Source: Haloplanus sp. CK5-1
GTDB lineage: Archaea; Halobacteriota; Halobacteria; Halobacteriales; Haloferacaceae
DNA length: 64,000 bases
Assembly: GCF_037201915.1 (NCBI RefSeq)
Contig: NZ_CP147505.1
Span: 2,046,001-2,110,000, forward strand
Direction: 5' to 3'
Each line of letters starts with the position of its first letter. Within the stretch, counting starts at the first letter, position 1. The notes under the pieces were generated by a model that saw nothing but the letters and a program-made list of their open reading frames with translations, made no database searches and had not been told where the DNA came from. Below, in pieces: positions 39,168 to 57,346 of the stretch. Position numbers and translations under genes: made by a program.

Positions 39168-39308
39168 TGGCCGAACGGACTGGGATTACGGGCATAAACC
39201 TTGTTATCTGTCGGTGGTCGGAACGGATTTGCGTCCCGAACTGCCGCCGTCTCACGGCGTCGGAGTCAACGAAAACGCTTATTCGCGGCTCGGCGGTACG
39301 TCGGGTCG

Positions 39309-40990: not shown

Positions 40991-41059
40991 ACTCTCGGAT
41001 AGAGAAGCCGGAGGTAAATAGGTTTCAGTAGAATCCAACTGATATCCTATATAAGTCAA

Positions 41060-41707: not shown

Positions 41708-41789
41708 ATAGGAGTTAAGAGGGGTGAGGTATAAAAAACATCTAAGTGATAGTCTGAGAGGTATTTGACTGGGCAAATACCACTCAGAC

Positions 41790-42842
41790 CTATTCCTTTT
41801 TTATTTCCTCATTTATAATGTTGATGAGGCCTTTAGCTGTATCTTCTGTCCAAAACCGCCAGCTTGAGACAGTCTTAATAGCTTCCTGAGACATCTGGTA
41901 AATCTCACTTGGATTTTCCGCAATATTCGAAAGGATTATTCCCCATTCATTTGGTGACCCCGCTAAAAACCCATTATCCCGGTTCCGAATAAGATATTTG
42001 ACTAAACTGACAGGAGTGGCGACTACAGGTACCCCAAGCGCGAGACATTCGACAATAGATGTAAATCCGCCCTTAGACCGAGTCCACTCATCGTCTCGAA
42101 GCGGTCTCAAACCGATATCAACCTCTGCAAGGTCTGCTAATGCCGAGTCAAGAGTCCACTCAACATATTCTACGTCTTCGCCTTCTCTGTCTTTGAACGG
42201 ACGAATCGGAAGCGTACCTGCGGTAATAATCCGAAGAGACAAGTTATCGTGACGTTCTAATACCTCGGATATTTCCCTCTCAACATCAGATAGGTAGTGA
42301 AGATTTTCCGGATTCCCGACCCACCCTAGTAATATCGAGTCTTCGTCTAAATCGCTGATATTTTGATGCTGCTCGTACTTCTTGCGCGGGATTCCAGTAT
42401 GCAGGCACTTCACTTCGTCAGTATACTGCCGAGCATACTCTACCAGTTCCCGGCTTCCGGCGATGGTCAAGTCGCTTTTCTCAATCAGAGTGTTGTGCTG
42501 GCGAATATCATCCTGGCCTACGTCTTTACCAGGTGGTGCGAGATGAATCGCATCATCAAAGTCATAAATTAGAGTCGAAGATATTTTAGACAAAATCTGA
42601 GTAAACCATGTTGGAAACCTAATCTTTTGTACGAATACAATATCGTTCCGCAGCACCTTCCACAAGATGTTTGACGCAAAGGTAGACCGCATCCATAAGC
42701 CATCTAATCCACTCTTGAACTGTGGAACTGCTATTGATTCAGTCGAAATCCCGGCCTCCTCGAGATGGGGGAGAAGTTCGTAGACGCGTAAACGAGAACT
42801 GGCTTGCGTTCGATCCCCAGCTGTAATAAATAGAGCGTCCAT
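41790..42842 (-). CDS. GT4-like glycosyltransferase
   Basis: A 350-residue GT-B protein. The N-half has LFITAGDRTQASSRLRVYELLPHLEEAG, an unusual start shared with some archaeal GT families. The C-half has the nucleotide-sugar site: LLGWVGNPENLHYL, then VDIGLRPLRDDEWTRSKGGFTSIVECLALGVPVVATPVS with the E-x7-E-like acceptor motif replaced by KGGFTSIVECLA. It probably adds one hexose to the lipid-linked glycan. AT-rich codon use, same strand as the FkbM gene. Confidence 0.82.
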   Translation of the reverse strand: MDALFITAGDRTQASSRLRVYELLPHLEEAGISTESIAVPQFKSGLDGLWMRSTFASNILWKVLRNDIVFVQKIRFPTWFTQILSKISSTLIYDFDDAIHLAPPGKDVGQDDIRQHNTLIEKSDLTIAGSRELVEYARQYTDEVKCLHTGIPRKKYEQHQNISDLDEDSILLGWVGNPENLHYLSDVEREISEVLERHDNLSLRIITAGTLPIRPFKDREGEDVEYVEWTLDSALADLAEVDIGLRPLRDDEWTRSKGGFTSIVECLALGVPVVATPVSLVKYLIRNRDNGFLAGSPNEWGIILSNIAENPSEIYQMSQEAIKTVSSWRFWTEDTAKGLINIINEEIKKE

Positions 42843-42932
42843 ATTACATGAGAAGTGGCTCCTTTATATAAACGCTATGTGGATTCCGCATTTATTTAAT
42901 CGAGCACCTGCTGAGTAGAGTATAACAATCCG

Positions 42933-43781
42933 ATGGGTTCCGAAATCCAGAAAGAAAAGTTGGTAGTCTATACTGCTATCTTCGGCGATTATGATATTCT
43001 CATGGAACCAAAAGGAGTGCCTGATGAAGTCGATCTAGTCTGTTTCACGGATAACCCAAACCTTCAGACCAACAAGTGGGAAATCCGCGTCGTCAGCGAG
43101 GAACTGACACCCGCGATGAGCAATCGTAAAATCAAGATTCTCCCGCATCGGTATCTCTCAGACTACGACTACAGCATCTACATTGATGGAAACGTTCATA
43201 TTGTCGACGACGTGAGCGAGCTTGCGTCAAAATACCTATCAAAATACCCGCTCGTTGTACCACCCCATCCCAAACGAGACTGTGTATACGACGAAGCGGA
43301 GGTATGTATTCAATCGGGGAAAGCTGACGAGAAGCCGATGCGAGAGATGATGAATCGGTACTCCGCGGACGGATTCCCTCAAAATTTCGGCCTGTCCGAA
43401 AACAACGTTATTCTGCGTGAACACCACGATGATGACGTACAGAGCTTGATGAATGAATGGTGGGAGGAAGTTCGCAACGGACCAGGTCGTGACCAGCTTT
43501 CACTTCCCTACGTGCTCTGGAGGAATGAGCACAAACTCCACAAATTGGACTTCATCCCTCGAACCCATGGCCAATATTTTATATTCTACCCACACAGAGA
43601 GTCAGGAACCAAACTATTCTGGATTCCGTATATTCGGATAACAACTAGGTTTAGCAAGCCTGTTGAGCGACGAGTTGCGGGACTCATCGGCGACGCCGTA
43701 CATGCTCAACGAAGTGGTGGAATTAGCGAACTGGCAAACAAAACTGTTAGGATTCTTTTGGAGAAGGTCTCTCCGCAATAG
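42933..43781 (+). CDS. DUF616-like glycosyltransferase-domain protein
   Basis: A 282-residue protein. The start KLVVYTAIFGDYDILMEPKG and YSIYIDGNVHIVDDV match the DUF616/TOD1-like glycosyltransferase group, where the Asp pair binds the nucleotide sugar. FPQNFGLSENNVILREH and DQLSLPYVLWR follow, typical of the family. The last 60 residues have no known domain. It runs against the genes on both sides and overlaps the next convergent gene by 35 bases. Acceptor unknown; likely a surface glycan. Confidence 0.78.
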   Translation: MGSEIQKEKLVVYTAIFGDYDILMEPKGVPDEVDLVCFTDNPNLQTNKWEIRVVSEELTPAMSNRKIKILPHRYLSDYDYSIYIDGNVHIVDDVSELASKYLSKYPLVVPPHPKRDCVYDEAEVCIQSGKADEKPMREMMNRYSADGFPQNFGLSENNVILREHHDDDVQSLMNEWWEEVRNGPGRDQLSLPYVLWRNEHKLHKLDFIPRTHGQYFIFYPHRESGTKLFWIPYIRITTRFSKPVERRVAGLIGDAVHAQRSGGISELANKTVRILLEKVSPQ

Positions 43782-44745
43782 AAATTCCGTGCTGTGACAG
43801 AACATCCTTGTAAATATTCATAATTCTGGCACCGATATTCTCCCAGCTAATTTCTCGGACCGTCTCACGGCCATTTGAGCGACCGCCATCCCGAATTACC
43901 TCAATCAGGCCTTCCACAAGCTCTTCTTCATTTGAACCTACTGCAGAAGGAAAAACGTCAACGAGGCGTTCTTCAACGTCACCAACATTCGTAGACACAA
44001 CCGGGATATTGCATGCTAGCGCTTCCTTGACGGTGTTGGGTGACCCTTCGTGCCGAGAGGTTAGTAGCAAGGCATCTGCAGCATTCATGTAGTAAACCAT
44101 CTTCTCATGAGGAACTCCTGATAAAGAGTGTAGTGTGATTTCTTGGCCTAACCTCTCACTTGCGGCCTCGACGATGGATTCTGCGAGGGGAAACCGTTTA
44201 CGCTCGTACTCTGGTGAATACGGAAATAGAACGTGGTAACCTTCTTGATCCCAGCCTGCTTCTTCTCGCGCTTCATCTCTATCAATCGGATAGAATTTAT
44301 CCATATCTATCCCACTGGGGAGAATATAGGCGTCCGAATGCCCGAGCAGCCCTTTCATCTCTTCACTGCGAACTGTAACTGCGTCACATCTCCAGGCGAA
44401 TAATTTCGTGATAGCTCCATCTAGCCCAACGACGTCCGATCCCCAGAGAGTCAAAACAACCGGAATATCGGACAACATCACCGCGTGTGGTGCTGTCAGG
44501 CCATAGTTTGCGTGTACAATATCGTAGTCTCCCTGTTTGAGTTCTGAGCGCACCTGAAATAGGAAGCGGATATATTCACTTGGCCCACGCTGGTTTCCCA
44601 TATTTCCATCAATTTGTTCCTGACCGGGAACAACAAGAACTGTACAATTGACGCCACGTTCTCTCAGAGACTCGATCTGCTGATCGAAGAAAACTTCCTC
44701 AGATGTCGTCAGATGAAGAACGCTGAGCTCGTCTCGTACACTCAT
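43747..44745 (-). CDS. GT4 family glycosyltransferase
   Basis: A 332-residue GT-B transferase. The N-terminal acceptor domain includes DYDIVHANYGLTAPHAVMLSDIPVVLTLWGSDV; the C-terminal domain shows YHVLFPYSPEYERKRFPLAESIVEAA, YMNAADALLLTSRHEGSPNTVKEALACNIPVVSTNVGDVEERL (the E-x7-E motif spans ADALLLTSRHEGSPNTVKEAL). Retaining hexosyltransferases of this type build archaeal and bacterial surface glycans. AT-rich codon use as in the neighbours. Confidence 0.87.
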   Translation of the reverse strand: MSVRDELSVLHLTTSEEVFFDQQIESLRERGVNCTVLVVPGQEQIDGNMGNQRGPSEYIRFLFQVRSELKQGDYDIVHANYGLTAPHAVMLSDIPVVLTLWGSDVVGLDGAITKLFAWRCDAVTVRSEEMKGLLGHSDAYILPSGIDMDKFYPIDRDEAREEAGWDQEGYHVLFPYSPEYERKRFPLAESIVEAASERLGQEITLHSLSGVPHEKMVYYMNAADALLLTSRHEGSPNTVKEALACNIPVVSTNVGDVEERLVDVFPSAVGSNEEELVEGLIEVIRDGGRSNGRETVREISWENIGARIMNIYKDVLSQHGISIAERPSPKES

Positions 44746-44924
44746 TCTCTGTTGTCGATTTCGACGCTGGTTGAGGTATGTTCTTCGATTTGAAAACCCG
44801 TGGTCGGATGATAGAGGAATTCACACCGGCTGGTGAGGGAAATATATACCGTACGGAGAGGGTCTAAACCATTCTGTCCAGCTAATCGAAATATAGAAGT
44901 TTTACTACTACGTTAGTCTTTTTT

Positions 44925-45908
44925 ATGGATGTTCTAGTAACTGGAGGTGCCGGCTTCATCGGCTCCCATCTCGCAGCTCGCCTTCTTCAAGAGAACCATC
45001 ATGTAGTTATTTTAGATAATCTTGACCCATATTATGACTTGGATTTGAAAAAAAGAAACCTGGGCCGATGCCGCCAAATATCGGAAAAGAATTTGGATTT
45101 CGTTGAGGGTTCTATCACTGACTCGACGCTTGTTTCAGATGTGCTCTCCGAACATAATATTGATGTTATATACCATGAGGCCGCGAAGGCTGGCGTCCGG
45201 TCAAGCGTAGAGAACCCGATCGCCTATGAAACGAATAATGTTGAAGGGACACTGAAGATCCTTCAGGCCGCTGAGAAACACGACGTAAACCGTCTAATCC
45301 ACGCATCCTCGTCCTCTGTATATGGGGTCCCGGACTACCTTCCATACGACGAAGAACACCCAAACCGACCTAAAAGCCCCTACGCAGTTACTAAACTTTC
45401 AAGCGAGCACTATTGCAACGTATTTAATGATTTGCATAATATATCAACAATAAATCTCCGCCACTTTACTGTTTATGGCCCGCGTATGCGGCCCAATATG
45501 GCCATTTCGAATTTTGTGTCCCGCTGTCTCAACGGCCAACCCCCAATTATCTATGGCGACGGCAAACAAACACGTGATTTCACATACATTAGTGATATCG
45601 TCGATGCTAATCTATCCCTTCTTAATTCGGATACTGCCGATGGAGAGACGATGAATATTGGCTCAAATGACAACATCTCGATTTGGGAACTTGCTGAGTA
45701 CGTTGTAGAAGAAACAGGAGCGGACGTAGAGATTGTCCACAAACCAGCGAAGGAAGCGGATTCTCGCCATACACACGCAGATATTTCAAAAGCACAAGAT
45801 AACATCGGATACGAACCAAGTTACGATATCAGGGAAGGCGTTCGGCAGTTCATTAACTGGTACGAATCAAATCGTGAGTGGTACGAACCCCTCGTGATGA
45901 AATCCTGA
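44925..45908 (+). CDS. NAD-dependent nucleotide-sugar epimerase/dehydratase
   Basis: A 327-residue extended SDR enzyme of the UDP-glucose/glucuronate 4-epimerase type. Motif VTGGAGFIGSHLAARLL at residues 5-21, active-site Ser in HASSSSVYG, and YAVTK near residues 153-157; sugar-binding RHFTVYGPRMRPNMAISNFV and substrate loop YISDIVDANL follow. It probably supplies galactose or galacturonate to the glycan. It is in the AT-rich block with its own upstream region; the 140 bases to rfbC hold no gene. Confidence 0.88.
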   Translation: MDVLVTGGAGFIGSHLAARLLQENHHVVILDNLDPYYDLDLKKRNLGRCRQISEKNLDFVEGSITDSTLVSDVLSEHNIDVIYHEAAKAGVRSSVENPIAYETNNVEGTLKILQAAEKHDVNRLIHASSSSVYGVPDYLPYDEEHPNRPKSPYAVTKLSSEHYCNVFNDLHNISTINLRHFTVYGPRMRPNMAISNFVSRCLNGQPPIIYGDGKQTRDFTYISDIVDANLSLLNSDTADGETMNIGSNDNISIWELAEYVVEETGADVEIVHKPAKEADSRHTHADISKAQDNIGYEPSYDIREGVRQFINWYESNREWYEPLVMKS

Positions 45909-46048
45909 CGAACCCCCATTATGCTCGTTAATTTCTCCTCTAAAATACCCTTTTGTACATCGTATTCAGATATAGTTTCTCACGCTATCAAAATCCAATC
46001 TCAACACCCGTAACCATATGAGATCTGAGTACGTGATTCCGAATTGTA

Positions 46049-46519
46049 ATGGCTCAAATTAACGGTGTGAGAGTTCGCGATCTACAAGTGAACGCTGACG
46101 AACGCGGTCATCTTGTCGAAGTATTTCGTGAGGACTGGGACGAGTACGATCCCGAGCCCGCGATGTCCTACTATTCAATGACGTATCCGGGTATAACGCG
46201 CGCCTGGCACCGCCATCACCGTGGCCAAATTGATCACTTTGTCTGTCCAAAGGGACGCATCAAGGTCGGCGTCTACGACGACCGTGAAGATTCACAAACT
46301 CAGGGCGAACTAAATACCTTCGTTATTGGTGAGCACAATCAGAAAGTGATTCGCATTCCGGGAGAGTGCTGGCATGGATTCAAAGCAATTGGTGAGGACC
46401 CTGCGTTCCTTATTAACTTCCCGTCGAACCTCTACGACTACGAGGACCCCGATGAGGAACGCCTCCCATACGATACAGACAAAATACCTTTGGACTGGGA
46501 CAAGGAACCGAGCGGGTAG
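46049..46519 (+). CDS. rfbC: dTDP-4-dehydrorhamnose 3,5-epimerase-like protein
   Basis: A 156-residue RmlC-type cupin, shorter than the bacterial 180. It starts VRVRDLQVNADERGHLVEVFREDWDE; the catalytic His and neighbours appear in PGITRAWHRHHRGQIDHFVCPKG, and GECWHGFKAIGEDPAFLINFPSNLYDY closes the barrel. It inverts carbons 3 and 5 of the dTDP-keto sugar, step 3 in dTDP-rhamnose synthesis. The next gene (rfbA) starts 4 bases after its stop, so they are cotranscribed. Haloferax counterparts are called Agl13 and Agl11. Confidence 0.88.
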   Translation: MAQINGVRVRDLQVNADERGHLVEVFREDWDEYDPEPAMSYYSMTYPGITRAWHRHHRGQIDHFVCPKGRIKVGVYDDREDSQTQGELNTFVIGEHNQKVIRIPGECWHGFKAIGEDPAFLINFPSNLYDYEDPDEERLPYDTDKIPLDWDKEPSG

Positions 46520-46522
46520 GTA

Positions 46523-47596
46523 ATGAAAGGAGTACTTCTCTCGGGGGGAACCGGCTCGCGGCTTCGCCCAATCACGCACACTGGCCCGAAGCAGCTCGTA
46601 CCGGTCGCGAACAAACCCGTCCTCGAGTACGCTATTGAGGACCTCAAGGCAGCCGGCATCACCGAGATTGGCGTCATTCTCGGGAACAAGGGCCGCGAGG
46701 AAATCCAAGAGCTTCTGGGTGACGGCTCGCAGTACGGCGTCGATATCACGTACATCGTCCAGGGGAACCCGCTCGGGCTCGCGCACGCAGCGGGCTGTGC
46801 GCGGGACTTCGTCGGTGACGATGACTTCGTAATGTACCTCGGTGATAACATCCTCAAGTCCGGCGTTACCGAACTCGTCGAGAGCTTCGAAGCCGGTGAC
46901 TATGGTGCGGGCATCGCGCTCCAGGAAGTCGAGAATCCGCAGGCGTTCGGAATCGCGGACATCGACGATGAGGGCAACGTCACCCAGCTCATCGAGAAGC
47001 CGGACCACCCACCAACGAATCTCGCGCTCATTGGCATGTACGTGTTCTCGCCGGCGGTCTTCGATGCGATTGACGACCTCGAACCGTCCTGGCGGGGCGA
47101 ACTCGAGATTACGGATGCGATTCAGGACTTGCTCGAGGACGGCTACGAGATCGACTCGCACGTCGTGACGGGCTGGTGGAAGGATACCGGGAAACCCGAG
47201 GACATCCTCGAAGCCAACCGCCTAGTCCTTGAGGACAAGGAGCTGACAACCGCGGGCGTTATCGAGGATGGCGCGACGACCGACGGCCGCATTGAGCTCG
47301 CCGAGTCCGCAGTTATTGAGGATGGCGCGGTTGTCCGTGGGCCGGTTTCGATTGCGGAGAACACGACTATCAAAAGCGGGACGTACATCGGGCCATACAC
47401 GTCAGTTGGCGCGAACTCTACGCTGGAGAACATTCACCTTGAGAATAGCGTGGTTATCGGCGATTCGACGATTACTGCTTCCGGCCGCATCGTTGACAGT
47501 CTCCTCGGCCGGAATGCGGACGTCGAGAGTGCCGACAACCTCCTTCCTGAAGGCCGGCGACTCGTCGTCGGTGAGAACTCCCAACTCAAACTCTAA
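46523..47596 (+). CDS. rfbA: glucose-1-phosphate thymidylyltransferase, long form
   Basis: A 357-residue enzyme making dTDP-glucose, the first step to rhamnose. Residues 1-235 are the transferase: LLSGGTGSRLRPITHTGPKQLVPVANKPV, MYLGDNILKSG, EKPDHPPTNLALIGMYVF, and WWKDTGKPEDILEANR. Residues 240-355 form a left-handed beta-helix with hexad repeats (AVIEDGAVVRGPVSIAENTTI), the hallmark of the long archaeal/Streptomyces form. GC-rich and codon-adapted compared with the AT-rich block before it. A tiny zinc protein starts two bases after its stop. Confidence 0.93.
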   Translation: MKGVLLSGGTGSRLRPITHTGPKQLVPVANKPVLEYAIEDLKAAGITEIGVILGNKGREEIQELLGDGSQYGVDITYIVQGNPLGLAHAAGCARDFVGDDDFVMYLGDNILKSGVTELVESFEAGDYGAGIALQEVENPQAFGIADIDDEGNVTQLIEKPDHPPTNLALIGMYVFSPAVFDAIDDLEPSWRGELEITDAIQDLLEDGYEIDSHVVTGWWKDTGKPEDILEANRLVLEDKELTTAGVIEDGATTDGRIELAESAVIEDGAVVRGPVSIAENTTIKSGTYIGPYTSVGANSTLENIHLENSVVIGDSTITASGRIVDSLLGRNADVESADNLLPEGRRLVVGENSQLKL

Positions 47597-47598
47597 GA

Positions 47599-47778
47599 AT
47601 GCGTATCATCACTCACACCTGTCCGGCCTGTGGGACCGTCGTCGCGGCGAACGAACTTGAGGACAACCGCGTCATGAAGTGTCCAGGACTGGGCTGCCAG
47701 GAAGTTCTGGAGTTCGCGGACCTCCCCGAGGATGCCCGCAAGCACTTTCTCGAACACCGCGAGCGCTACCAGCTCTAA
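47599..47778 (+). CDS. 59-residue zinc-binding protein inside the rhamnose gene cluster
   Basis: ATG to TAA, two bases after rfbA and overlapping the convergent rfbD by four. It has two CxxC-like pairs: HTCPACGTVVA and MKCPGLGCQEV, then a charged helical tail (LPEDARKHFLEHRERYQL). No family name is known to me. The overlap and spacing suggest it is made with rfbC and rfbA; a regulatory or assembly role is possible. Confidence 0.75.
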   Translation: MRIITHTCPACGTVVAANELEDNRVMKCPGLGCQEVLEFADLPEDARKHFLEHRERYQL

Positions 47779-48665
47779 CCCAGAGCGTTCCAGACAGCGT
47801 CGACGTCCTCGCGCAACGTCGGCTGCTCGCGTCCAAGTTCCTCCGCTACCTTCCCGACGTCCAGACAGCTGTACGTCGGGCGTGCCGCAGCCCGATCGAT
47901 GTCCTCAGTCGAGCCGGCTTGCAGCAAGTTCGAATTGGCACCGACGTGTGCAGACAGCACTTCGCCGAACTCGTAGGGTGTGACACACGAACTGCACGCG
48001 ACGTGGTACAACCCACTCGACGCCTGTTCAACGAGGGTGAGAACCGTCTGTGCGGCCTGTCCGGCGCGTGTTGGTGTCACCAACTGATCCGTAAACAAGG
48101 GAACGGCTTCGCTCGCCTGCAATTGCTCACGCACCCACGCGGGAAAGCCACTGAGAGTGCCAGTGCTGCGGTGAATCCCCCAGACGAACGACAGTCGCGG
48201 TAGCAGCGCCGTCTCCATCGCGTCCTGTACTGCTCGTTCGCCCGCGAGCTTCGATTCGCCGTACACCTGTACTGGATTCGGGTCCGCCGTCTCGCTATAC
48301 GGGTCTCGTGCTGTCCCGTCGAAGACGTAGTCCGTTGAAACGTGGACAAAGTCAATCCCGGCCTGCTCACAGCGAGCAGCCATTCCGGCCGGCGCCTCAC
48401 TGTTGATGACGTGAGCCGCCTCGGGATTCCGCTCGCAGCCGTCCACGTCCGTCATGGCCGCACAGTTGACGACAACGTCCGGACCGTGCTCGTTGATGAC
48501 GTCGTCGAACGTGCTGTATTCTTGGAGGTTAAATTGTGTCAGTGGGACGTCGAAGTTGGGGCGTGTCGAGTGGTAGGTACCGCTGACCGCCCAGCCGCGT
48601 TGCTGGCCCGCGCGAACCACGTTACTGCCAAGGAGACCGTTTGCGCCGACGACGAGCAGCCGCAT
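47775..48665 (-). CDS. rfbD: dTDP-4-dehydrorhamnose reductase
   Basis: A 296-residue short-chain reductase that makes dTDP-L-rhamnose with NAD(P)H. Rossmann motif LLVVGANGLLGSNVVRAG at residues 3-20, DVVVNCAAMTDVDGCERNPEAAHVIN, the HVSTDYVFDG motif, catalytic YGESK and the EVLSAHVG C-terminal part are present. The start MRLLVVG is the conserved one; the open frame upstream is rejected. It faces rfbA/zinc protein head-on and is divergent from rfbB 52 bases away, so rhamnose genes share control regions. Confidence 0.92.
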   Translation of the reverse strand: MRLLVVGANGLLGSNVVRAGQQRGWAVSGTYHSTRPNFDVPLTQFNLQEYSTFDDVINEHGPDVVVNCAAMTDVDGCERNPEAAHVINSEAPAGMAARCEQAGIDFVHVSTDYVFDGTARDPYSETADPNPVQVYGESKLAGERAVQDAMETALLPRLSFVWGIHRSTGTLSGFPAWVREQLQASEAVPLFTDQLVTPTRAGQAAQTVLTLVEQASSGLYHVACSSCVTPYEFGEVLSAHVGANSNLLQAGSTEDIDRAAARPTYSCLDVGKVAEELGREQPTLREDVDAVWNALG

Positions 48666-48717
48666 ACCATAAACTTCCATCAGTAAGGTAAATAGGTGCC
48701 GCCACCGAGACCGTAGT

Positions 48718-49644
48718 ATGCAAATTCTCGTCACTGGCGGCGCCGGATTTATCGGCTCAAATTTCGTGCACTATCTTCTCGACGAGCACAAAGACGATGA
48801 CATCGTCACGCTCGACGCCCTAACGTACGCAGGCTCTCGAGACAACTTGGATGGCGTGCTCGATCATCCGCGCCACGAGTTTATTGAGGGCGACATTCGA
48901 GACCGTGATCTCGTTACCGAACTCGTCGCTGATGCCGATGCCGTTGTCAACTTCGCTGCCGAGTCCCACGTCGACCGTTCCATCGAAGGGGCGGAACCGT
49001 TCGTTTCGACGAACGTTCAAGGGACACAGACGCTGCTTGATGCAGCCAACGACGAAGGCGTCGAACGGTTCCTCCAGATTTCGACCGACGAAGTATACGG
49101 CCAAGTGCTCGATGGCAAATTCTCCGAAGAGGACCCGCTCAACCCGCGGAATCCCTATGCGGCAACGAAAGCTGGCGCGGATTTACTCGCGCAAAGTTAT
49201 GAGACGACTCACGATCTCCCTGTGGTTATTACGCGGACCTGCAACAACTTCGGCCCTCGCCAGCACCCGGAGAAGCTCATCCCGAAGTTCATTCAGAATG
49301 CCGCCAACGGTGACCCTCTTCCTGTCTACGGTGACGGCTCGAACGTCCGCGAATGGATCTACGTCGAGGACAACTGCCGCGCACTTGACCTCGTACTCCG
49401 CGAGGGCGACGTTGGCGAAGTCTACAATATCGGTAGCCACGCCGAGAAAACGAATCTCGAAGTCACCGAAGCCATCCTCGATGCAGTCGGCGCGTCCGAA
49501 GACCTCATCGAATTCGTTGAAGACCGCGCTGGCCACGACCAACGGTATGCACTTGACACCAGCAAGATCGAAGCACTCGGCTGGGAACCCACCTACACCT
49601 TCCAGGAAGCACTTGACCGTACCGTCGATTACTACCGTGAATAA
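48718..49644 (+). CDS. rfbB: dTDP-glucose 4,6-dehydratase
   Basis: A 308-residue dehydratase, step 2 of dTDP-rhamnose synthesis. Motifs: ILVTGGAGFIGSNFVHYLL at residues 3-21, ADAVVNFAAESHVDRSI, QISTDEVYG (Ser/Asp active-site strand), YAATK, TRTCNNFGPRQHPEKLIP and the EWIYVEDNCRALDLVL loop. Complete and typical. Slightly shorter than bacterial homologues (350). Divergent from rfbD. The flippase gene follows on the opposite strand 35 bases later. Confidence 0.94.
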   Translation: MQILVTGGAGFIGSNFVHYLLDEHKDDDIVTLDALTYAGSRDNLDGVLDHPRHEFIEGDIRDRDLVTELVADADAVVNFAAESHVDRSIEGAEPFVSTNVQGTQTLLDAANDEGVERFLQISTDEVYGQVLDGKFSEEDPLNPRNPYAATKAGADLLAQSYETTHDLPVVITRTCNNFGPRQHPEKLIPKFIQNAANGDPLPVYGDGSNVREWIYVEDNCRALDLVLREGDVGEVYNIGSHAEKTNLEVTEAILDAVGASEDLIEFVEDRAGHDQRYALDTSKIEALGWEPTYTFQEALDRTVDYYRE

Positions 49645-49679
49645 ATATTCAGCAGAATATAGGAGTGTCAAACATATGT

Positions 49680-51083
49680 TTAGAGAGGGATGTTATGCTT
49701 AACTGTCGTTCGGAATTCTTTCGATATGGACAGTAAAGACCCGAAATAGATTGCCGCGCCGATACCAACGAGGAATATTATAACAGAGAGAGAGGACCCA
49801 AAGAGAGCACGCCCAACAAATACGGCGACAGCCATAATCATCGCTGATAGACACTGCTTAGAAATTTCTTTGATAGGTATATCTATACTGATTACTTTAT
49901 TAGCGTAATAATATGAGAGTAGAAGCCCTAAACCCGCGGAGACCGTCGTTGCTACTGCTGCACCGTACCAACCGAACTGCCACGTAAGGACGACATTTAA
50001 TCCAATATTTACTGCGGCGAATGCGGCATTAATGTGGAACGTCAGGTTGGGGTAATCAAGAGCGTTAATTGTATTCAGAAATTGACCCATATATCCGTAC
50101 AGCAGACGCGCAAAGGTAAGGACGAGCAAGATATAGTAACCAGCGTCAAAGCCAGAACCGTAGATAGTTAATACGACATCACCAACAAGCGCTGCTCCGA
50201 CCATCCCAGGAATGATAAATAGCCCCGAATATGCGAGACTTACTTCCAGAAGGTCCGATATCTCGTTCTCTGAACCTCCTGCTGAAGATATCTTACTCAT
50301 CTCAGGGAATAGGGTTCGAGAAATAGACGCGCCAAATGTAGCGAATAAAGATGCAAGATTCCACGCAATTTCATAGACTGCGACGAGGCTATGAGAGACG
50401 AAGACAGCTAGAATTAGCGTATCCATCGACAAAAACGTCCGCCCTTTGATTGACCCGAGCCAAGAAAACTGGGCGTATTCTTTCAACCGAGAGAATTCCT
50501 GACGCGATGGGCGCGTCCGTGGAATTGTGATGAAATACGCGCCAATAATAGTTGCTACTATTGTACCAACAACGTAACCAGCGAATGCGCCAGCAAGTCC
50601 GAACCCAGAAAGGACAAGCGTGACCTGAACGATGCTTCGGCTCGTCCACTGAACGGGGGACAAAATACTAGATACATGTACAAGATGTTGACCATCTAGA
50701 ACGGTCCGAACGAATCCGTATGCAAGTCGACCGGCTAGCATTATAATAATGACCCACGTCGCCATGACCTCCATAAAGTCGTTGAGGTATGGTTGGGCCA
50801 CCAAAAGGCAAACAGCAACAAAACTGTACATCCCAAACTGTACAATTGCTCCAGAAAGTACGTAATTCCCCTCTCCGGACTCACTAACGCGTTTCTTGAC
50901 TGCTTGTGGCAACCCAAACTCTCCTGCTAAGGACACCCATGAGAGTACTGATAACACGACAACGTACGTCCCGTACCTGCTCTGGCCGAGCGTCCGTGTT
51001 AGGACGATTGTCGCAATAAAACCCGCGAGAGAAACCGCTAGTTGCGACAAAAAATTCACCATCGAAGTACGGCCGTATTTCAT
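49680..51083 (-). CDS. lipid-linked-oligosaccharide flippase (AglR/Wzx-like)
   Basis: A 467-residue membrane protein with 12-14 helices of the MOP superfamily (polysaccharide transporter). Start MKYGRTSMVNFLSQLAVSLAGFIATIVLTRTLG; DTLILAVFVSHSLVAVYEIA and the paired GLFIIPGMVGAALVG helices are typical. Such proteins flip the dolichol-bound glycan outward; Haloferax AglR is the known counterpart, but sequence diverges enough that I give no symbol. AT-richer than the rhamnose genes. Confidence 0.86.
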   Translation of the reverse strand: MKYGRTSMVNFLSQLAVSLAGFIATIVLTRTLGQSRYGTYVVVLSVLSWVSLAGEFGLPQAVKKRVSESGEGNYVLSGAIVQFGMYSFVAVCLLVAQPYLNDFMEVMATWVIIIMLAGRLAYGFVRTVLDGQHLVHVSSILSPVQWTSRSIVQVTLVLSGFGLAGAFAGYVVGTIVATIIGAYFITIPRTRPSRQEFSRLKEYAQFSWLGSIKGRTFLSMDTLILAVFVSHSLVAVYEIAWNLASLFATFGASISRTLFPEMSKISSAGGSENEISDLLEVSLAYSGLFIIPGMVGAALVGDVVLTIYGSGFDAGYYILLVLTFARLLYGYMGQFLNTINALDYPNLTFHINAAFAAVNIGLNVVLTWQFGWYGAAVATTVSAGLGLLLSYYYANKVISIDIPIKEISKQCLSAMIMAVAVFVGRALFGSSLSVIIFLVGIGAAIYFGSLLSISKEFRTTVKHNIPL

Positions 51084-51174
51084 GAGAGGTCACGCGGGGA
51101 TACGCGGATACAGGGGGTTTCAACTGCCACCGTATCAATACCGCGCTTCTCAACGATGGAGTGCTTAGAGACGG

Positions 51175-51711
51175 GTCCTTACGCCCACCAGCGCGAACAG
51201 TTGGGCCTCGCTCACACCCTAGACGGCCGAGCCCCATTCGAGATGACTTTATACTCATGCTCGGAGACAACGTCTTTCAGGCGAACCTTGGCGACGTCAC
51301 CAACCGGCAAGCCGAGGACCGAGCCGACGCCGCGTTCCTCGTCGAGGAGGTGCCATGGGAGGAGGCGAGCCGGTACGGCGTCTGTGACACCAACGAGTAC
51401 GGCGATATCATACGCGTCGTCGAGAAGCCCGACGACCGCGCTTGAACCTGGTGATGACCGGCTTCTACACGTTCACGCCGGCCATCTTCCATACCTGTCA
51501 CCTGGTCCAGCCGTCGGATCGCGGCGAGTACGAACTTCCTGATGCCATCGACCTGTTGATCCAGAGTGGGCGGACCATCGACGCGATCCGGATGGATGGC
51601 TGGCGGATCGACGTGGGGTATCCGGAGGACCGTGATGAAGCCGAGCGGCGACTCACCGAGACTGCGAAATCCTCTGGGAAGACGGATGACACGACCGCTG
51701 AAATCGACTAA
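51175..51711 (+). pseudogene. decayed second aglF-like nucleotidyltransferase
   Basis: Pieces in three frames match AglF from its residue ~75 onward: YAHQREQLGLAH in one frame, DDFILMLGDNVFQANLGDV through FLVEEVPWEEASRYGVC in the next, and after a further shift near 51438 NLVMTGFYTFTPAIFHTC to the normal C-terminus WRIDVGYPEDRDEAERRL. The N-terminal nucleotide site is missing, so this cannot be active. It resembles the intact aglF at 40.2 kb and most likely records an older aglF or a duplication. Confidence 0.85.
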
Positions 51712-52023
51712 CTAATTTATAAAAGAGTGGGAGTCTGCGCTGTGACCCGGCGGGCTACGCACCGCTGTGGTATCTGGTCCGTGAACGCGGCATTTGTCGT
51801 TAGTTTGAAATTATTCTGTCGGTGTAACCTGAAGTGACTTCACCCTCTCCAGCATTTCCCAGCCGGTAGTTACTGGAAATCTGGTTCCGACGAGTTCCAA
51901 GTGCTGCCTGTCGAATTCCGGTCTGATAAGTCCAACACCAGAAGTTATTGGATGTATTAACTCGTTTAACCTGGTGTAATTGCAACGAAAAGAATCGTTA
52001 TAGACTAAACCACCTTACGGACA

Positions 52024-52046
52024 GACACACCCCTCATACCGAGTGA
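52024..52046 (-). repeat. ORB-like repeat 1 (inverted)
   Basis: On the minus strand it reads TCACTCGGTATGAGG followed by GGTGTGTC, sharing the CACTCGGTA core and the G-rich GGTGTGTC end with the downstream copies. Inner spacer is two bases longer than in copies 4 and 5. Confidence 0.75.
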
Positions 52047-52317
52047 CATTCACGACAGGTACCGTCTCTATCAAAGGGATTCGGCGAGTAATGTAATCCC
52101 GAGCAGCCCGCTGTCTTTTTATAAATAGAGAAGCTCGCCGTTCACCGTGGGAACGACGTCATCTTGGGGGTAAACTTGTGGTATTATGAGATATGTGGTT
52201 GCTAGCGTGTGGGGATCTTCCCACCACACATCGTGTCGAGTGTTCTCCACAGAGAGTTATCCTGTTTGACCAGCTTTCTTCGGTGCTCTGAATGTTGACC
52301 AGAGAATTAGGGTCCAA

Positions 52318-52342
52318 GCACACCCCGCGTACCGAGTGAAAT
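52318..52342 (-). repeat. ORB-like repeat 2 (inverted)
   Basis: On the minus strand it reads ATTTCACTCGGTACG followed by CGGGGTGTGC. It has the same TTTCACTCGGTA start as copy 5 and the same G-string and TGTG end. It faces repeat 3 across an AT tract. Confidence 0.78.
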
Positions 52343-52446
52343 CGAAGGTGTGGCATACGCAGGTCAATGAGAGCCTCGACTATCGTTCAATATTATTGAT
52401 GAAGTCTTCAACACTGATCGAACCGGTTTATTCGGGACGCGGAGAC

Positions 52447-52467
52447 TCACTCGGTTTGCCCCGTGTC
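52447..52467 (+). repeat. ORB-like repeat 3 (direct)
   Basis: Reads TCACTCGGTTTGCCC then CGTGTC on the plus strand. The CACTCGGT half is exact, while the G-string is replaced by CCCC. This is the most diverged copy; it may be a weaker site. Confidence 0.6.
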
Positions 52468-52592
52468 TAAGACTCTCAATTTATATTTAAAACAAGTCTA
52501 TTCGGCGCTTTGATTGTCTCTAACTCCATTATTAACACTCTCACTTGGTACTTAGTCGGTACATTTTTGTTGTTCCTCGCAGATGCATGTGT

Positions 52593-53789
52593 ATGACAAG
52601 ACGCGACGATATCTTCGAGACAGGAGAGATATTCCAAGACCGGAAGCTCGTCCGCGTCGGCCACGTTCCGAATCTTGACCGTGTTGTCGGCCGGGATAGT
52701 GAGATCGAGTTGATGGGGAGTGCCCTTGCCCCAGCGATACGTGGAGGCCCACCCGAAACGACGATTATCTATGGCAAAACCGGAACCGGAAAATCACTCG
52801 TTACGAGGTGTGTGACTCGCGAAGCGAGGGACCGAGCAGCGGAGAACGGTCAACGGTTCACGTACGCCTATGTTGATTGCTCTGATTATGGGACCGAAGC
52901 ACAAGCAAGCCGCCAGATGGCTCGAGAGTTGCAGGCCAATCTTGGTGACGCTGTTGGCAATCAGTCGATTCCACGGCGTGGAATCGGCGCTGCAGACTAT
53001 CGTGACGTCACGTGGGAACTACTTTCGGAGGGCGATGTCGATGCCTTCGTAGTTATTCTTGATGAAATAGATAAACTTGACGGGGATGCACTGTTGCGCA
53101 GCCTATCTCGGGCCCGCGAAAGTGGCAAAGCAGAGGCCTTCGTTAGTGCAGTGTGCATCAGTAATAAGATCGAATATCGAGAGCAGCTTAGTGAGCGGGT
53201 TGACTCTTCGCTTCAGGATAATGAGGTTGTTTTCGATCCGTACGACGCCACTCAACTGGAAGCGATCTTGACTCGACGGAAGGATGCCTTTTCTGAGGGT
53301 GTTTTGGAAGAGGGAGTCATTTCGAAGACTGCAGCGTTAGCTGCCCGTGAGCACGGTGATGCACGGAAAGCAATCGATATGTTGTATGAGGCAGGCCGGA
53401 TCGCTGAAAAAAATCAAGCCACCCAAGTTACTGTGGATCACGTTGATGCTGCGCTGAAACGGGCCGAAATCAATCGATTCCAAAAACTCGTTAGCGGCCA
53501 GACTCCGCATGTCAAGCATATTCTCCGAGCATTAGCACTACTTACTGAAAAGGCCGATTGTCAGCGCTTCCGCACAGCAGAGGTGTATGACACCTATCAA
53601 CAGGTCGCAGAGCATGCCGGTGCAAGTCCCCTAAGCTATGATCGAGTTCAGCGACTGCTCAAAGAACAGGCCTTTCTTGGCGTCACAGAAAGTGAGCACA
53701 CCGGAGGTGGACACGGGGAAGGGAGCTATCGGGTCCATCGCCTACTCCGTTCACCGGAGATTGTCTCTGAAGGGCTAAATGGTGCATAG
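52593..53789 (+). CDS. orc1: Orc1/Cdc6 replication initiator
   Basis: A 398-residue initiator ATPase. Start MTRRDDIFETGEIFQDRKLVRVGHVPNLDRVVGRD; Walker A IIYGKTGTGKSLV near residue 60; Walker B VVILDEIDKLDGDALLRSLSRA; sensor 2 region AREHGDARKAIDMLYEAGRIAE; and a C-terminal winged helix (RFRTAEVYDTYQQVAEHAGASPLSYDRVQRLLKEQAFLG) that binds the origin repeats. Haloarchaea have many paralogues, each tied to its own origin. Repeats on both sides make this one likely to drive the local origin. Its codon use is AT-richer than the core, as in the surrounding region. Confidence 0.95.
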   Translation: MTRRDDIFETGEIFQDRKLVRVGHVPNLDRVVGRDSEIELMGSALAPAIRGGPPETTIIYGKTGTGKSLVTRCVTREARDRAAENGQRFTYAYVDCSDYGTEAQASRQMARELQANLGDAVGNQSIPRRGIGAADYRDVTWELLSEGDVDAFVVILDEIDKLDGDALLRSLSRARESGKAEAFVSAVCISNKIEYREQLSERVDSSLQDNEVVFDPYDATQLEAILTRRKDAFSEGVLEEGVISKTAALAAREHGDARKAIDMLYEAGRIAEKNQATQVTVDHVDAALKRAEINRFQKLVSGQTPHVKHILRALALLTEKADCQRFRTAEVYDTYQQVAEHAGASPLSYDRVQRLLKEQAFLGVTESEHTGGGHGEGSYRVHRLLRSPEIVSEGLNGA

Positions 53790-53814
53790 TTTTCCGTGTC
53801 TGTATCGTCTATTC

Positions 53815-53836
53815 TTCACTCGGTATCGGGTGTGTC
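53815..53836 (+). repeat. ORB-like repeat 4 (direct)
   Basis: Reads TTCACTCGGTATCGGG then TGTGTC, 25 bases after the orc1 stop. The 22-base core is identical to repeat 5, 68 bases further right. Confidence 0.82.
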
Positions 53837-53882
53837 CATACTCGTACCGGTTGAGGGTCACGAGGCTGGTCTAAGATCTTGG

Positions 53883-53906
53883 ATTTCACTCGGTATCGGG
53901 TGTGTC
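53883..53906 (+). repeat. ORB-like repeat 5 (direct)
   Basis: Reads ATTTCACTCGGTATCG then GGTGTGTC. It shares its 22-base core with repeat 4 and lies 13 bases from the truncated end of the archaellin pseudogene. Confidence 0.82.
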
Positions 53907-53919
53907 TCTGAGACTCAGG

Positions 53920-54357
53920 TTATAATACTCTTTTCGGCGAGTTATTGATGACTGTCTGGTTAGTGAACGGGAACCGGTCGGTGCCGTTTGGCCCCACCAC
54001 TTCGAAGGTGGTCGCGCTCATGTTGATGTCGCTGGCGCCCGGTGTCTTCTGAACAACCATCGATACTTCGTTCACAGCCATGTACGTGTCACTCTAAAAT
54101 AGGTCTTGTTGAGAATCGTCCAGTATCACGTCATCGCTCTCGTTGCACACCGAGACGTTCCCTGTCTTCGAAACGGGTTCGAGTCGATCCGAAACCTGTG
54201 TGCTGCTCTGTTATCCGGTCTGTTCTGATTGGGTCTGGAGGAAGCCAGCCGTGTTGATCAGGACACCGGCCGCAATCGCTGCAACCAAGACCAGCGCGAT
54301 GAACATGATGAGCGTCCCGATACCGACTTGGCCTCGGTCAGTTCGTTCTTTGAGCAT
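53920..54357 (-). pseudogene. archaellin (flagellin) gene killed by stop codons and 3' truncation
   Basis: From ATG at 54357 the frame reads [19 protein letters not shown] and a hydrophobic helix to [13 protein letters not shown], the class-III signal and start of archaellin. A TAA then interrupts, but the same frame goes on: VSDRLEPVSKTGNV, then a TAG, then AVNEVSMVVQKTPGASDIN and MSATTFEVVGPNGTDRFPF. So one frame with two point nonsense changes, then a loss of the C-terminal third at 53920, next to an origin repeat. The helix and later part match haloarchaeal ArlA/FlgA archaellins. It cannot give a full product. Confidence 0.88.
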
Positions 54358-54479
54358 TGTTGTCTCGTATGCAGGCGTCTGGGAAATCGTCTTAACTCTC
54401 TGGAGCAAATGACCACATCGAAAAATCGGGTGTACGACCAGAAGCACAGAATTACGGAACTGAGGACAACGTGTAACGG

Positions 54480-54797
54480 TCACGTCCAGTTGTGGTTCTC
54501 CCAGCCCTCATAGTGTTTCAGCCGGCTCTTGATCTCGAATGGTTCCCACTCACATTCGTAGTAGAGGACATCGGCCAGCTGGCCGAACTCCCCGTTGTTG
54601 AGTTCGATTCCCTTGTTCCCTCGATTCGTGATGTAGGGCGCGGAACGCAGATCGTCGAAGATGTCGATGGCGGTGGGGTAGTCGCTCGTATCGATAGCCG
54701 AGATAGAAAGAAGATTTTCCTCAACGATAGGTGACCCCCAGCGATGTTCGGCTATCATCGCTGCGAGGAGCGCACATTTTACTGACGGCTTTCGCAT
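54480..54797 (-). CDS. 105-residue haloarchaeal protein of unknown function
   Basis: Starts [30 protein letters not shown] and ends [26 protein letters not shown]. The N-terminal helix and a middle part ([23 protein letters not shown]) suggest a small winged-helix-like or alpha/beta fold. I have seen similar proteins next to a divergent winged-helix gene in haloarchaea, as here, but know no function. Intact and without membrane segments. Confidence 0.65.
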
Positions 54798-54871
54798 ACC
54801 CCTCTGTTTTTCATCTGTCTCTAATAAGAATATGTTAATACGTGTTTACGCTCAGGCGAACAGTTATGTAT

Positions 54872-54889
54872 GTCAGCGGGTAAACTGAC
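54872..54889. promoter_or_regulatory. inverted repeat GTCAG...CTGAC before the 54893 gene
   Basis: Five-base perfect arms around 8 AT-rich bases, ending three bases before ATG. Between this and the divergent 54797 start, AT-rich promoters (AATATGTTAATA) can serve both genes, so the winged-helix product may control both from here. Confidence 0.35.
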
Positions 54890-54892
54890 CGT

Positions 54893-55252
54893 ATGAGCGA
54901 GCCACCGCAGACCCACTCGGCGGCGGAGAAAGACACCAAGGAGGCCCGTCTAGAGAATCCGAGCGGCGTCCTCTACCTCTTCCAGCACGAGAGCGTCCCG
55001 ATTCTCATCGACGCTATCCTCACGCTTCCACCTGGACGGGAGTTCAACAAGACCGAATTCGCCGATCACGCCGGCGTCACCCGGCAAACCGTGAGCAACT
55101 ACATCAACGTTCTCTTGCAGACCGATGTGGTTGAGGAGGTTCCGAACACGTCCCCGCGCCGGTATCGTGTCGCGAAGAGCGACGTCGTCCAGGAGCTTTT
55201 CGAACTGAACAGTGCCCTGAACGCCGCCGGCGAGTCAGCTACCAACGGCTGA
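54893..55252 (+). CDS. winged-helix-turn-helix DNA-binding protein
   Basis: A 119-residue protein. After a polar 25-residue start, residues 28-95 form a winged helix: VLYLFQHESVPILIDAILTLPPGREFNKTEFADHAGVTRQTVSNYINVLLQTDVVEEV, then a TSPRRYRVAKSD wing. The C-terminal helix (VVQELFELNSALNAAG) may dimerise. It is divergent from the 105-residue gene to the left, with 95 bases shared. This looks like a small regulator pair found on haloarchaeal accessory elements. No ligand domain. Confidence 0.8.
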   Translation: MSEPPQTHSAAEKDTKEARLENPSGVLYLFQHESVPILIDAILTLPPGREFNKTEFADHAGVTRQTVSNYINVLLQTDVVEEVPNTSPRRYRVAKSDVVQELFELNSALNAAGESATNG

Positions 55253-55292
55253 AACTGTGGGCTTCCGCCTTGCTACCGCTGTGATTGACATC

Positions 55293-55331
55293 TTCCCGCG
55301 CCTAAAGACGCGGGAATCCCAAGCGTTGGGA
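55293..55331 (-). ncRNA. structured end of an IS200/IS605-type TnpB element (guide-RNA-like)
   Basis: Two hairpins just outside the tnpB stop: TTCCCGCG/CGCGGGAA (55293-55300/55309-55316) and TCCC/GGGA (55317-55320/55328-55331). In intact haloarchaeal TnpB elements the transcript overlapping the tnpB 3' end ends in such hairpins and yields the guide (omega or reRNA), with the guide taken from flanking DNA. Here the element is a remnant, so activity is doubtful, but the RNA end is preserved. Confidence 0.5.
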
Positions 55332-55333
55332 TA

Positions 55334-55576
55334 TTAGGGTTTGCAGTCTCCCTGTTCTCTCGGTGTAAACCGTCCGCTCTCGCGGTCGAACAGGAAGACT
55401 CCGAGCTGTGCCAACCAGCCGTTACTCATATCGCCCATCGGGGGACTCTGAGTTATCCGTCTACGAATGTTCACCGCGCCGTTCACGTCTGCGTTCATCG
55501 TCGCCGCGCACGACGAACAGACGTATAGACCGCGCTCCACACGGTTGCTATCCCGAATCTGCCTACAACACGAACA
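55334..55576 (-). pseudogene. C-terminal remnant of a TnpB-type RNA-guided nuclease gene
   Basis: About 80 codons remain, ending in TAA: CSCCRQIRDSNRVERGLYVC with SSC (zinc finger of four Cys), then MNADVNGAVNIRRR, the RuvC-III Asp region, and the tail GVFLFDRESGRFTPREQGDCKP, which I recognise from haloarchaeal TnpB. The first ~330 residues (RuvC-I and -II) are gone. The remnant abuts a plus-strand S-layer fragment at about 55577. Confidence 0.88.
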
Positions 55577-55578
55577 CG

Positions 55579-56214
55579 AGCACGCAGCAGTCGTTCCGCG
55601 TGGTCGACACGAGCCTCGAAGCGAACGTTGGCACGATCGGCGGCCAGGTCGCGATCGAGGACTCGGAGGCCAACGTGACGGGGACCGCACTCGGTGCCCA
55701 GTCGGTCACGGTGATCTTCGTGGGTGAGCGTGGCAACACGGTCTACCAGACGATCTCCGTCGACGACACGATGGTCGTCGCCGGCACGACGAACCTCCAG
55801 CCCGACGACAACTCGATCACCGTCGAGCTGCTGACCGAGGAGGGCGACTCGGTCGCCCTGTCGACGACCCAAGAGTGGTCGACTGACGGTTCCTGCATGG
55901 TCAGCCTCGAGCTCGAGGACGTCGAGACGGGGACCTACGACGTTGAAGCTGACGACAGCTACAACGAGGACCTCGCGTCGGTAGAGATCGTCCAGAACCG
56001 ACAGACTGCGACGCCGGAACCGACGGACACGCCGGAGCCGACGGACACGCCGGAGCCGACCGACACGGTGACGGACACGCCGGAACCGACGGACATGCCG
56101 ACGGACACGGCGACTGCGACGCCGACGTTGGAAGGCGGACCGGGCTTCGGTGCGATCATCGCGGTCATCGCGCTCTTGGCGGCTGCGCTGCTGGCCACCC
56201 GGCGCGACACCTAA
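55579..56214 (+). pseudogene. C-terminal fragment of an S-layer-type surface glycoprotein with PGF-CTERM signal
   Basis: About 211 codons in one frame, with no start of their own; upstream codons are antisense to the TnpB remnant. It begins FRVVDTSLEANVGTIGG and VNVTGTALGAQSVTV-like Ig repeats, contains N-V-T glycosylation sites, then a TPEPTD-type Thr/Pro linker repeated about five times, and ends with GPGFGAIIAVIALLAAALLAT then RRDT, a PGF-CTERM archaeosortase signal plus helix. These match haloarchaeal S-layer glycoproteins. The 5' part is absent, so it is a fragment. Confidence 0.85.
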
Positions 56215-56437
56215 CGACGACTGATCGCCGGTAGCGATCACGCGACGCCGTTCGCGGTTTTTTGATGTAACATACGTCAGTACCCTGTACTTGGTCAGCT
56301 ACGGCTGTTGGTGATCGAACTGCCAGTCACACAGATGATGAAAATATCCACGGCTCTAGCCAGAGCGGTGTCGATTTGAACGGTAATTCGAGGGCGATTT
56401 CGGAACGATTTTTATTGATCCGAGTTAAGTCTAAGTG

Positions 56438-57346
56438 ATGGATTCCCGGCCCGGTGATGTCTGTATCCTCATTCCAACCTTGGATGAGGCCGAGACCATC
56501 GGCGACGTCGTCGAGGACTTCCGCGAGGCGGGATTCTCCGACGTCCTCGTCGTCGACGGCGGGTCGACCGACGGCACCCGCGACGTCGCCCGCGAGGCGG
56601 GCGCGCGCGTCGTCCAGCAGTCGGGGACGGGAAAGGGACAGGCGGTTCGCGAAGCCATCTCGAACCACGTCGACGCCGACTACGTCCTCATGCTCGACGG
56701 CGACGGCACGTACCGCGCCGCCGACGCGAACGAGATGCTCGCCCCCCTCCGCTCGGGCGAGGCCGCCCACGTCATCGGGAACCGCTTCGCAGACATGCGT
56801 TCGGGCGCGATGACGTTCCTCAACCGGGTCGGCAACCGCCTCATCAACGCCGCCTTCCGGACGATCCACCGCGACGACTTCGGCGACATCCTCTCGGGCT
56901 ACCGCGCCTTTACTCGCGAGTCCTTCGAGGCGATGCACCTCACCGCCGACGGCTTCGGCATCGAGACGGAGATGGCCGTCGAGTGTGCCAAACACGGGAT
57001 CCCGACGACGGTGGTCCCGATAACCTACCGCCCTCGCCCTTCGGGGTCGAACACGAACCTCCACCCGGTCCGGGACGGCGGGATCATCTTCCTCGAACTG
57101 TACCGCCGGGCGAAGACCAACAATCCCCTCTTCTACTTCGGAAGCATCGGCACGGTGTCGACACTGTTCGGGGGTCTCGTCGCCGCCTACGTCGGCGTCG
57201 AGTGGGTCACCCAGCGCGTCTCCCACGAGGTGCTCGCGATCGTCGCCGCCTTCGCCATCCTCGTCGGCGTCCAACTGCTGATGTTCGGGGTGCTCGCGGA
57301 TCTGATCCTCTCGTTGCACCGCGAGCAACTCCGCGAACAGGAGTGA
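56438..57346 (+). CDS. aglJ: dolichyl-phosphate hexosyltransferase AglJ
   Basis: A 302-residue GT2 enzyme that puts the first sugar on dolichyl phosphate for N-glycosylation. Motifs: CILIPTLDEAETIGDVVEDF, VVDGGSTDGTRDVA, YVLMLDGDGTYRAADANEML (metal-binding DGD), HRDDFGDILSGYRAFTRESF. Two C-terminal membrane helices (about residues 230-285) hold it at the membrane. An overlapping GTG one codon earlier is possible; ATG is preferred. A TTTTTATT box lies about 25 bases upstream, so the mRNA is probably leaderless. Confidence 0.93.
   Translation: MDSRPGDVCILIPTLDEAETIGDVVEDFREAGFSDVLVVDGGSTDGTRDVAREAGARVVQQSGTGKGQAVREAISNHVDADYVLMLDGDGTYRAADANEMLAPLRSGEAAHVIGNRFADMRSGAMTFLNRVGNRLINAAFRTIHRDDFGDILSGYRAFTRESFEAMHLTADGFGIETEMAVECAKHGIPTTVVPITYRPRPSGSNTNLHPVRDGGIIFLELYRRAKTNNPLFYFGSIGTVSTLFGGLVAAYVGVEWVTQRVSHEVLAIVAAFAILVGVQLLMFGVLADLILSLHREQLREQE

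Follow-up and report, generated by a model that had tools for sequence, protein, structure and literature searches.

Origins of haloarchaea that are paired with their own orc1/cdc6 initiator gene have been described in some detail. It is already known that ORB repeats can flank the orc gene on both sides, that ORBs and initiators are specifically paired, and that such pairs can lie in polysaccharide gene islands (PMC3528665, PMC3936714, PMC4441112). On an ORB, Orc uses its winged helix for binding, and its AAA+ domain contacts the G-string (PMC3936714, PMC9738581). The oriC2 of Haloarcula hispanica needs its own cdc6, and is restrained by the ORBs downstream of cdc6E, probably via titration (PMC3936714). 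For oriC3-cdc6D of H. hispanica, autonomous replication was not obtained and the origin was termed deficient (PMC3528665); a transposase interrupts it (PMC4441112). Haloarchaeal origins have been assigned to one family at 80% identity (PMC3528665). Orc1-2, a paralogue of Orc1 in archaea, regulates transcription, binds to its own promoter and recognises a different motif (PMC9738581).

We analysed a stretch of 64,000 nucleotides of the Haloplanus sp. CK5-1 genome (contig NZ_CP147505.1, positions 2,046,001 to 2,110,000; hereafter, the window), for which a preliminary description had proposed a replication origin with ORB-like repeats on both sides of orc1/cdc6. As seen from Table 1, the gene next to the repeats is indeed an orc1/cdc6. 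Its intact, full-length reading frame encodes a protein matching TIGR02928 at 365 bits, plus the Cdc6 lid and Cdc6 winged-helix domains; the closest solved relative by sequence is Aeropyrum Orc1 (2v1u). All five repeats that had been listed are present in the orientations given and at most a few bases from the positions given, and the core said to be shared by copies 4 and 5 is the same at 22 of 22 nt. Copy 3 is a repeat in its left half only, as GCCCC replaces the G-string. At least two inverted ORBs with a G-string lie in the intergenic region flanking the orc gene, with the G-string of the right arm (copy 3) degenerate. The count of five was right for pattern matches but missed a sixth copy inside the orc reading frame: a matrix built from the five copies found one extra strong site in the window (22.8 bits; runner-up, 11.3 bits). 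The pattern TCACTCGGTN7GTGT had five perfect matches in the single-contig genome of 3,243,851 bp, all within window positions 52027–53905, and its backwards-read control had zero in the whole genome; a genome search pattern that allowed three mismatches drowned in chance matches and was discarded. The family consensus TCACTCGKTRYNNGGKGTG likewise had five exact matches genome-wide, which are the four intergenic copies scoring 30–32 bits and the in-gene copy; no further site had one mismatch, and four had two. Exact ORB copies in the 3.24-Mb genome are therefore confined to 1.9 kb around one orc1/cdc6 gene, rather than spread evenly, the outcome that the preliminary description had said would speak against an origin. 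Its sequence thus predicts a haloarchaeal replication origin of the orc/cdc6-adjacent kind, which has already been described.

Table 1. Features of the predicted origin and its surroundings (window positions).
Feature	Position	Strand	Remark
Low-GC glycosylation island carrying the origin	39201..57346		between aglB and purD
ORB copy 1, GTCACTCGGTATGAGGGGTGTG	52026..52047	-	G-string directed away from orc gene
ORB copy 2, TTCACTCGGTACGCGGGGTGTG	52319..52340	-	left arm of outward-facing inverted pair
ORB copy 3, CTCACTCGGTTTGCCCCGTGTC	52446..52467	+	right arm of inverted pair; G-string degenerate
AT-rich block	52468..52539		69% AT (family mean 66%); between ORB 3 and half-ORB
Degenerate promoter-proximal half-ORB, CTCACTTGGTACTTAGTCGGTA	52540..52561	+	93-94 bp from ORB 3, as in homologues measured
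TATA-like stretch	52562..52570	+	about 28 nt before ATG; putative leaderless-type promoter, from sequence and family alignment
orc1/cdc6 initiator gene, 398 aa	52593..53789	+	AAA+, Cdc6 lid, winged helix
Walker A (P-loop) codons GKTGTGKS	52773..52796	+	
Sixth, in-gene ORB, ATCACTCGTTACGAGGTGTGTG	52793..52814	+	codons K-S-L-V-T-R-C-V; codon-level conservation across family
ORB copy 4	53815..53836	+	downstream of orc gene
ORB copy 5	53885..53906	+	downstream of orc gene; same as copy 4
105-aa protein	54480..54797	-	homologues adjoin same-family ORBs in other genomes (L224, L225)
119-aa MarR-like helix-turn-helix protein	54893..55252	+	homologues near same orc or its ORBs elsewhere

Whole-genome searches (a scan of genome contigs had yielded two relatives only) found close homologues of the window orc in 50 of 391 genomes of the class, in 22 haloarchaeal genera. 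At least one exact consensus ORB was present in 44 of these 50 genomes versus 46 of the 341 without the orc (p = 2e-26), a co-occurrence that makes the pairing of ORB and initiator strong. The specific initiator-origin pairing suggested earlier is supported, though not as a novelty, since the phenomenon is known (PMC3528665, PMC3936714, PMC4441112). The same ORBs occur at the homologous loci examined, mostly flanking the orc gene on both sides, and loci at 62–84% identity mostly have the same arrangement, with minus-strand copies upstream, one plus-strand copy at about −146, and plus-strand copies downstream. The window orc shares the ORB matrix and about 67% protein identity with locus L042 (genome G094), which we infer, from evidence including gene order and ORB counts, to be cdc6D of H. 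hispanica; the alternative that L042 is oriC2-cdc6E was rejected, because cdc6E corresponds to L086, which has 14 ORBs of a different type. As its identity is below the 80% rule of PMC3528665, the window orc is a close relative of oriC3-cdc6D and not a strict member of that family by that rule. ORBs of this family also occur apart from the gene. One locus (L227, G384) has a six-ORB cluster and no matching orc, and in two others (L228, G165; L230, G170) family ORBs persist without an intact close orc. Copies spread over 18–31 kb, with the close orc absent, were seen in G086 (L220) and G363 (L221/L222). At 11274–11540 of L222, 89 aa remain of an orc of this family (76% identity), from its winged-helix end. 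They adjoin an orc of a different type, which is intact and has ORB-like repeats of its own, so that one origin appears to have replaced another.

ORB 3 keeps its position, at about −146 relative to the ATG, across the orc family. In 28 homologous loci measured, the distance from this plus-strand ORB to the half-ORB is 93–94 bp (92 in one), and the stretch between them has a mean of 66% AT versus 42–47% far upstream, in the coding sequence and downstream. The AT tract of the origin is not where the preliminary description had put it: the interval between the inverted copies 2 and 3 is just 53% AT, and it is the stretch from copy 3 to the half-copy that is AT-rich. The family alignment places the half-ORB directly next to the TATA-like element, where a leaderless promoter is expected; both ORB 3 and the half-ORB are degenerate in Haloplanus sp. 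CK5-1. The block is a candidate unwinding element as well as a candidate upstream promoter region. By homology, Orc1/Cdc6 would bind the family ORBs by its winged helix, with the initiator-specific motif of the AAA+ domain on the G-string. With the help of the outward-facing ORBs upstream, the initiator would then gather around the AT-rich block ahead of the gene, where the DNA would be opened and the MCM helicase loaded. The half-ORB, the Walker A copy and the downstream pair would be extra ORBs that opening does not require.

The same anatomy could be read as mainly transcriptional, with Orc regulating its own gene, and perhaps its island neighbours, rather than activating an origin. A half-ORB adjoining the promoter at a fixed position, an ORB inside the gene, and the two genomes with dispersed ORBs and no close orc would all suit such a regulator, for which Orc1-2 on its own promoter is a precedent (PMC9738581). 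We nevertheless think this unlikely, given that the locus matches haloarchaeal origins in its inverted outward-facing ORBs with G-strings, in its AT-rich block and in encoding a full initiator-type protein, and that the motif of Orc1-2 is a different one (PMC9738581).

The in-gene ORB lies at the end of Walker A, its codons directly following the Walker A lysine, and its score is on a level with those of intergenic ORBs. With a family matrix of 185 intergenic ORBs (median score, 30.0 bits), a site of 19–33 bits was found at this place in 21 of 32 homologues (>60% identity), and no site above 5.3 bits in the rest of their coding sequence; synonymous positions outside the site are scrambled among these homologues. 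As 11 of the 32 do not have it, the in-gene ORB is not essential to the orc family, and its distribution requires at least six changes on a tree of 42 protein rows from which the P-loop columns had been removed. Synonymous-codon resampling of each gene gave mean scores below zero, with p of about 0.004 or less for the 21 observed sites and less than 0.001 for most. In a synonymous-conservation test (within-gene permutation, 25 non-redundant genes, 200 null runs), the strongest window of the gene coincided with the in-gene ORB (z 17.6; null maximum, 5.5). Individual codons of the site departed from the background in these 25 genes: TCA in 21 versus 23% within TCN (p 2e-10), CTC in 23 (p 2e-7), GTT in 19 versus 24% (p 6e-8), AGG or CGG in 21 versus 27% (p 5e-9; AGG, p 9e-9) and TGT in 22 (p 0.01), all of them binomial values that take no account of relatedness; the remaining windows of these genes, to which the same relatedness applies, had a mean z of 2.05 (SD 2.21). 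A second synonymous peak, at codons 371–379, was ruled out as a site; it is due to serine AGY codons, which cannot reach TCN via single synonymous steps, and to one tyrosine.

Could the match simply follow from the encoded SLV(T/A)RCV and the usual choice of codons, without being a binding site? P-loop residues are highly conserved anyway, SLV also occurs in Orc paralogues, CTC is a preferred codon, and serine codon blocks raise some scores (for example, at codon 376). We find this reading quite unlikely. The use of TCA, GTT and AGG deviates strongly from expectation even given the protein, and the codon constraint is absent from paralogues that are 54–58% identical and have a nearly identical P-loop. 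No convincing in-gene copy of the cognate ORB was found in about 40 other orc loci; two of these, the near-identical duplicates L080 and L083, reached p about 0.03. In addition, serine occupies codon 69 in 10 of the 11 homologues that lack the site, and threonine or alanine in all 21 that have it. The codon pattern is most simply read as selection that keeps an Orc-binding site in the DNA, and preservation of the repeat across many genera suggests that a feedback site is part of the gene itself. We lean towards the view that the Walker A codons are dual-use DNA, which would encode the P-loop while also forming a full-strength site for the encoded protein. Synonymous-codon selection would have kept this site in several haloarchaeal families, and through it the initiator may limit its own gene, and hence its origin, from within the coding sequence. 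This conserved in-gene ORB appears to be undescribed: neither it nor the fixed 93–94-bp module was found in the literature searched, the coverage of which was incomplete and in which earlier surveys were intergenic-only.

Besides the window orc, the genome has four substantial orc genes and one fragment. The one at 300.5–301.8 kb has the canonical oriC1 ORB, with a 97% inverted pair, and the one at 1.7525 Mb (L005) is flanked on either side by ORBs of a type of its own, TTCATATCGCACACGGGGTGTG. The window ORB is unlike either, which agrees with the earlier remark that its core is not of the oriC1 type; the window locus as oriC1 was ruled out, because oriC1 is at 302 kb with another orc and another ORB. 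GC skew, which the preliminary description had proposed as a check around 52 kb, was calculated from samples that together make up about a quarter of the genome. Its sharpest turn was at oriC1 (0.26–0.32 Mb) and a weaker one was near 1.78 Mb, close to the 1.753-Mb orc; L005 is probably the main secondary origin of the genome. At the window origin (2.098 Mb) the sampled skew did not turn, being −0.003 on one side and −0.001 on the other, though for recently acquired origins a skew turn is a supporting and not a defining criterion. Equal skew on both sides suggests that the window origin is young, weak or dormant.

Dormancy or decay is possible, though less likely than not: the cassette would have arrived with its island, would fire no more, and its ORBs and orc would be heading for loss as in related genomes. 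It is consistent with the flat skew next to the strong turn at oriC1, with the lost G-string of ORB 3 and the degenerate half-ORB, with the genomes that have ORBs and no close orc or only the 89-aa remnant, and with the non-functional oriC3-cdc6D of H. hispanica (PMC3528665, PMC4441112). Decay, however, has not reached the orc frame, which is complete, nor the four high-scoring intergenic ORBs, nor the in-gene ORB.

The origin lies in an island of rmlABCD-type genes, glycosyltransferases and a flippase. The anchors of this island, aglB and purD, were both found in 11 of 11 congeners, where they are 1.3 to 30 kb apart in nine, 67 kb apart in one, and on separate contigs in one fragmented assembly. 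The interval (window 35952–60348) is thus variable genus-wide, with a species at 1.3 kb and a different one at 67 kb as its extremes. An orthologue of the window orc was found in none of the 11 congeners. The island is, as judged from these comparisons, species-specific, and the origin appears to have been acquired along with it. Sugar-nucleotide or related genes are near 11 of 20 loci of the orc family versus 1 of 20 other orc loci (p = 0.001), which agrees with the published gain and loss of haloarchaeal origins with polysaccharide-rich variable regions (PMC3528665, PMC4441112). Searches for a viral source of the cassette gave no match among phage records or viral contigs. Several neighbours deserve mention. 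Homologues of the 105-aa protein, which had no Pfam match, and of the MarR-like protein (54480–55252) lie beside family ORBs without a close orc (L224, L225), as if co-travelling with the cassette. Just upstream of the ORBs (51256–51710) is what looks like a frame-broken nucleotidyltransferase-like remnant, and at 55334–55690, on the minus strand, the end of an open reading frame resembles, in translation, the C-terminus of an IS200/IS605-type TnpB and may be a transposon remnant.

The locus is most likely a recently acquired origin, the initiator of which would be autoregulated or titrated via the promoter-proximal, in-gene and downstream ORBs. By blocking transcription and by titration, these extra ORBs would lower free or newly made Orc, and such negative feedback could limit the firing of a secondary origin and so avoid a clash with oriC1. 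As a whole, the locus is probably best explained as a cassette of the oriC3-cdc6D type that combines initiator and origin in a self-contained unit, arrived together with a variable glycosylation island, and has extra ORBs that restrain the initiator. A tested case of how over-firing of secondary origins is controlled in multi-origin archaea is oriC2D, where the initiator is titrated outside the gene. If our reading is true, a feedback element is built into catalytic codons and moves with the gene whenever the cassette changes genome, and searches for ORBs restricted to intergenic DNA, as in earlier surveys, miss a conserved element.

The closest described relative is oriC3-cdc6D of H. hispanica and other Haloarcula, which shares with the window origin the ORB type, ORBs before and after orc, and a location in a variable region rich in polysaccharide genes that is gained or lost between species (PMC3528665, PMC4441112). 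The putative H. hispanica cdc6D has an in-gene ORB as well (31.5 bits). The upstream region of oriC3-cdc6D is broken by the transposase insertion (PMC4441112), whereas four intergenic ORBs with G-strings remain in the window. With oriC2-cdc6E of H. hispanica the window has in common that ORBs flank the cognate orc on both sides (PMC3936714); that system differs in having another orc and another ORB, AAACACTTGCAGGGTGGT, in 14 copies but with none in the gene, and the window has two downstream ORBs only. Haloarchaeal oriC1 likewise has outward-facing inverted ORBs with G-strings beside orc, but with a different orc and a different ORB, CCGTTCCACCTGAAACGAAGGGGTGGGGGG (302 kb in Haloplanus sp. CK5-1). 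In phage lambda, ori is inside gene O, and the iterons bound by the initiator, within the initiator coding sequence, are the origin itself. The window orc, in contrast, has one site, placed in the codons of the catalytic P-loop, and its AT-rich block is outside the gene.
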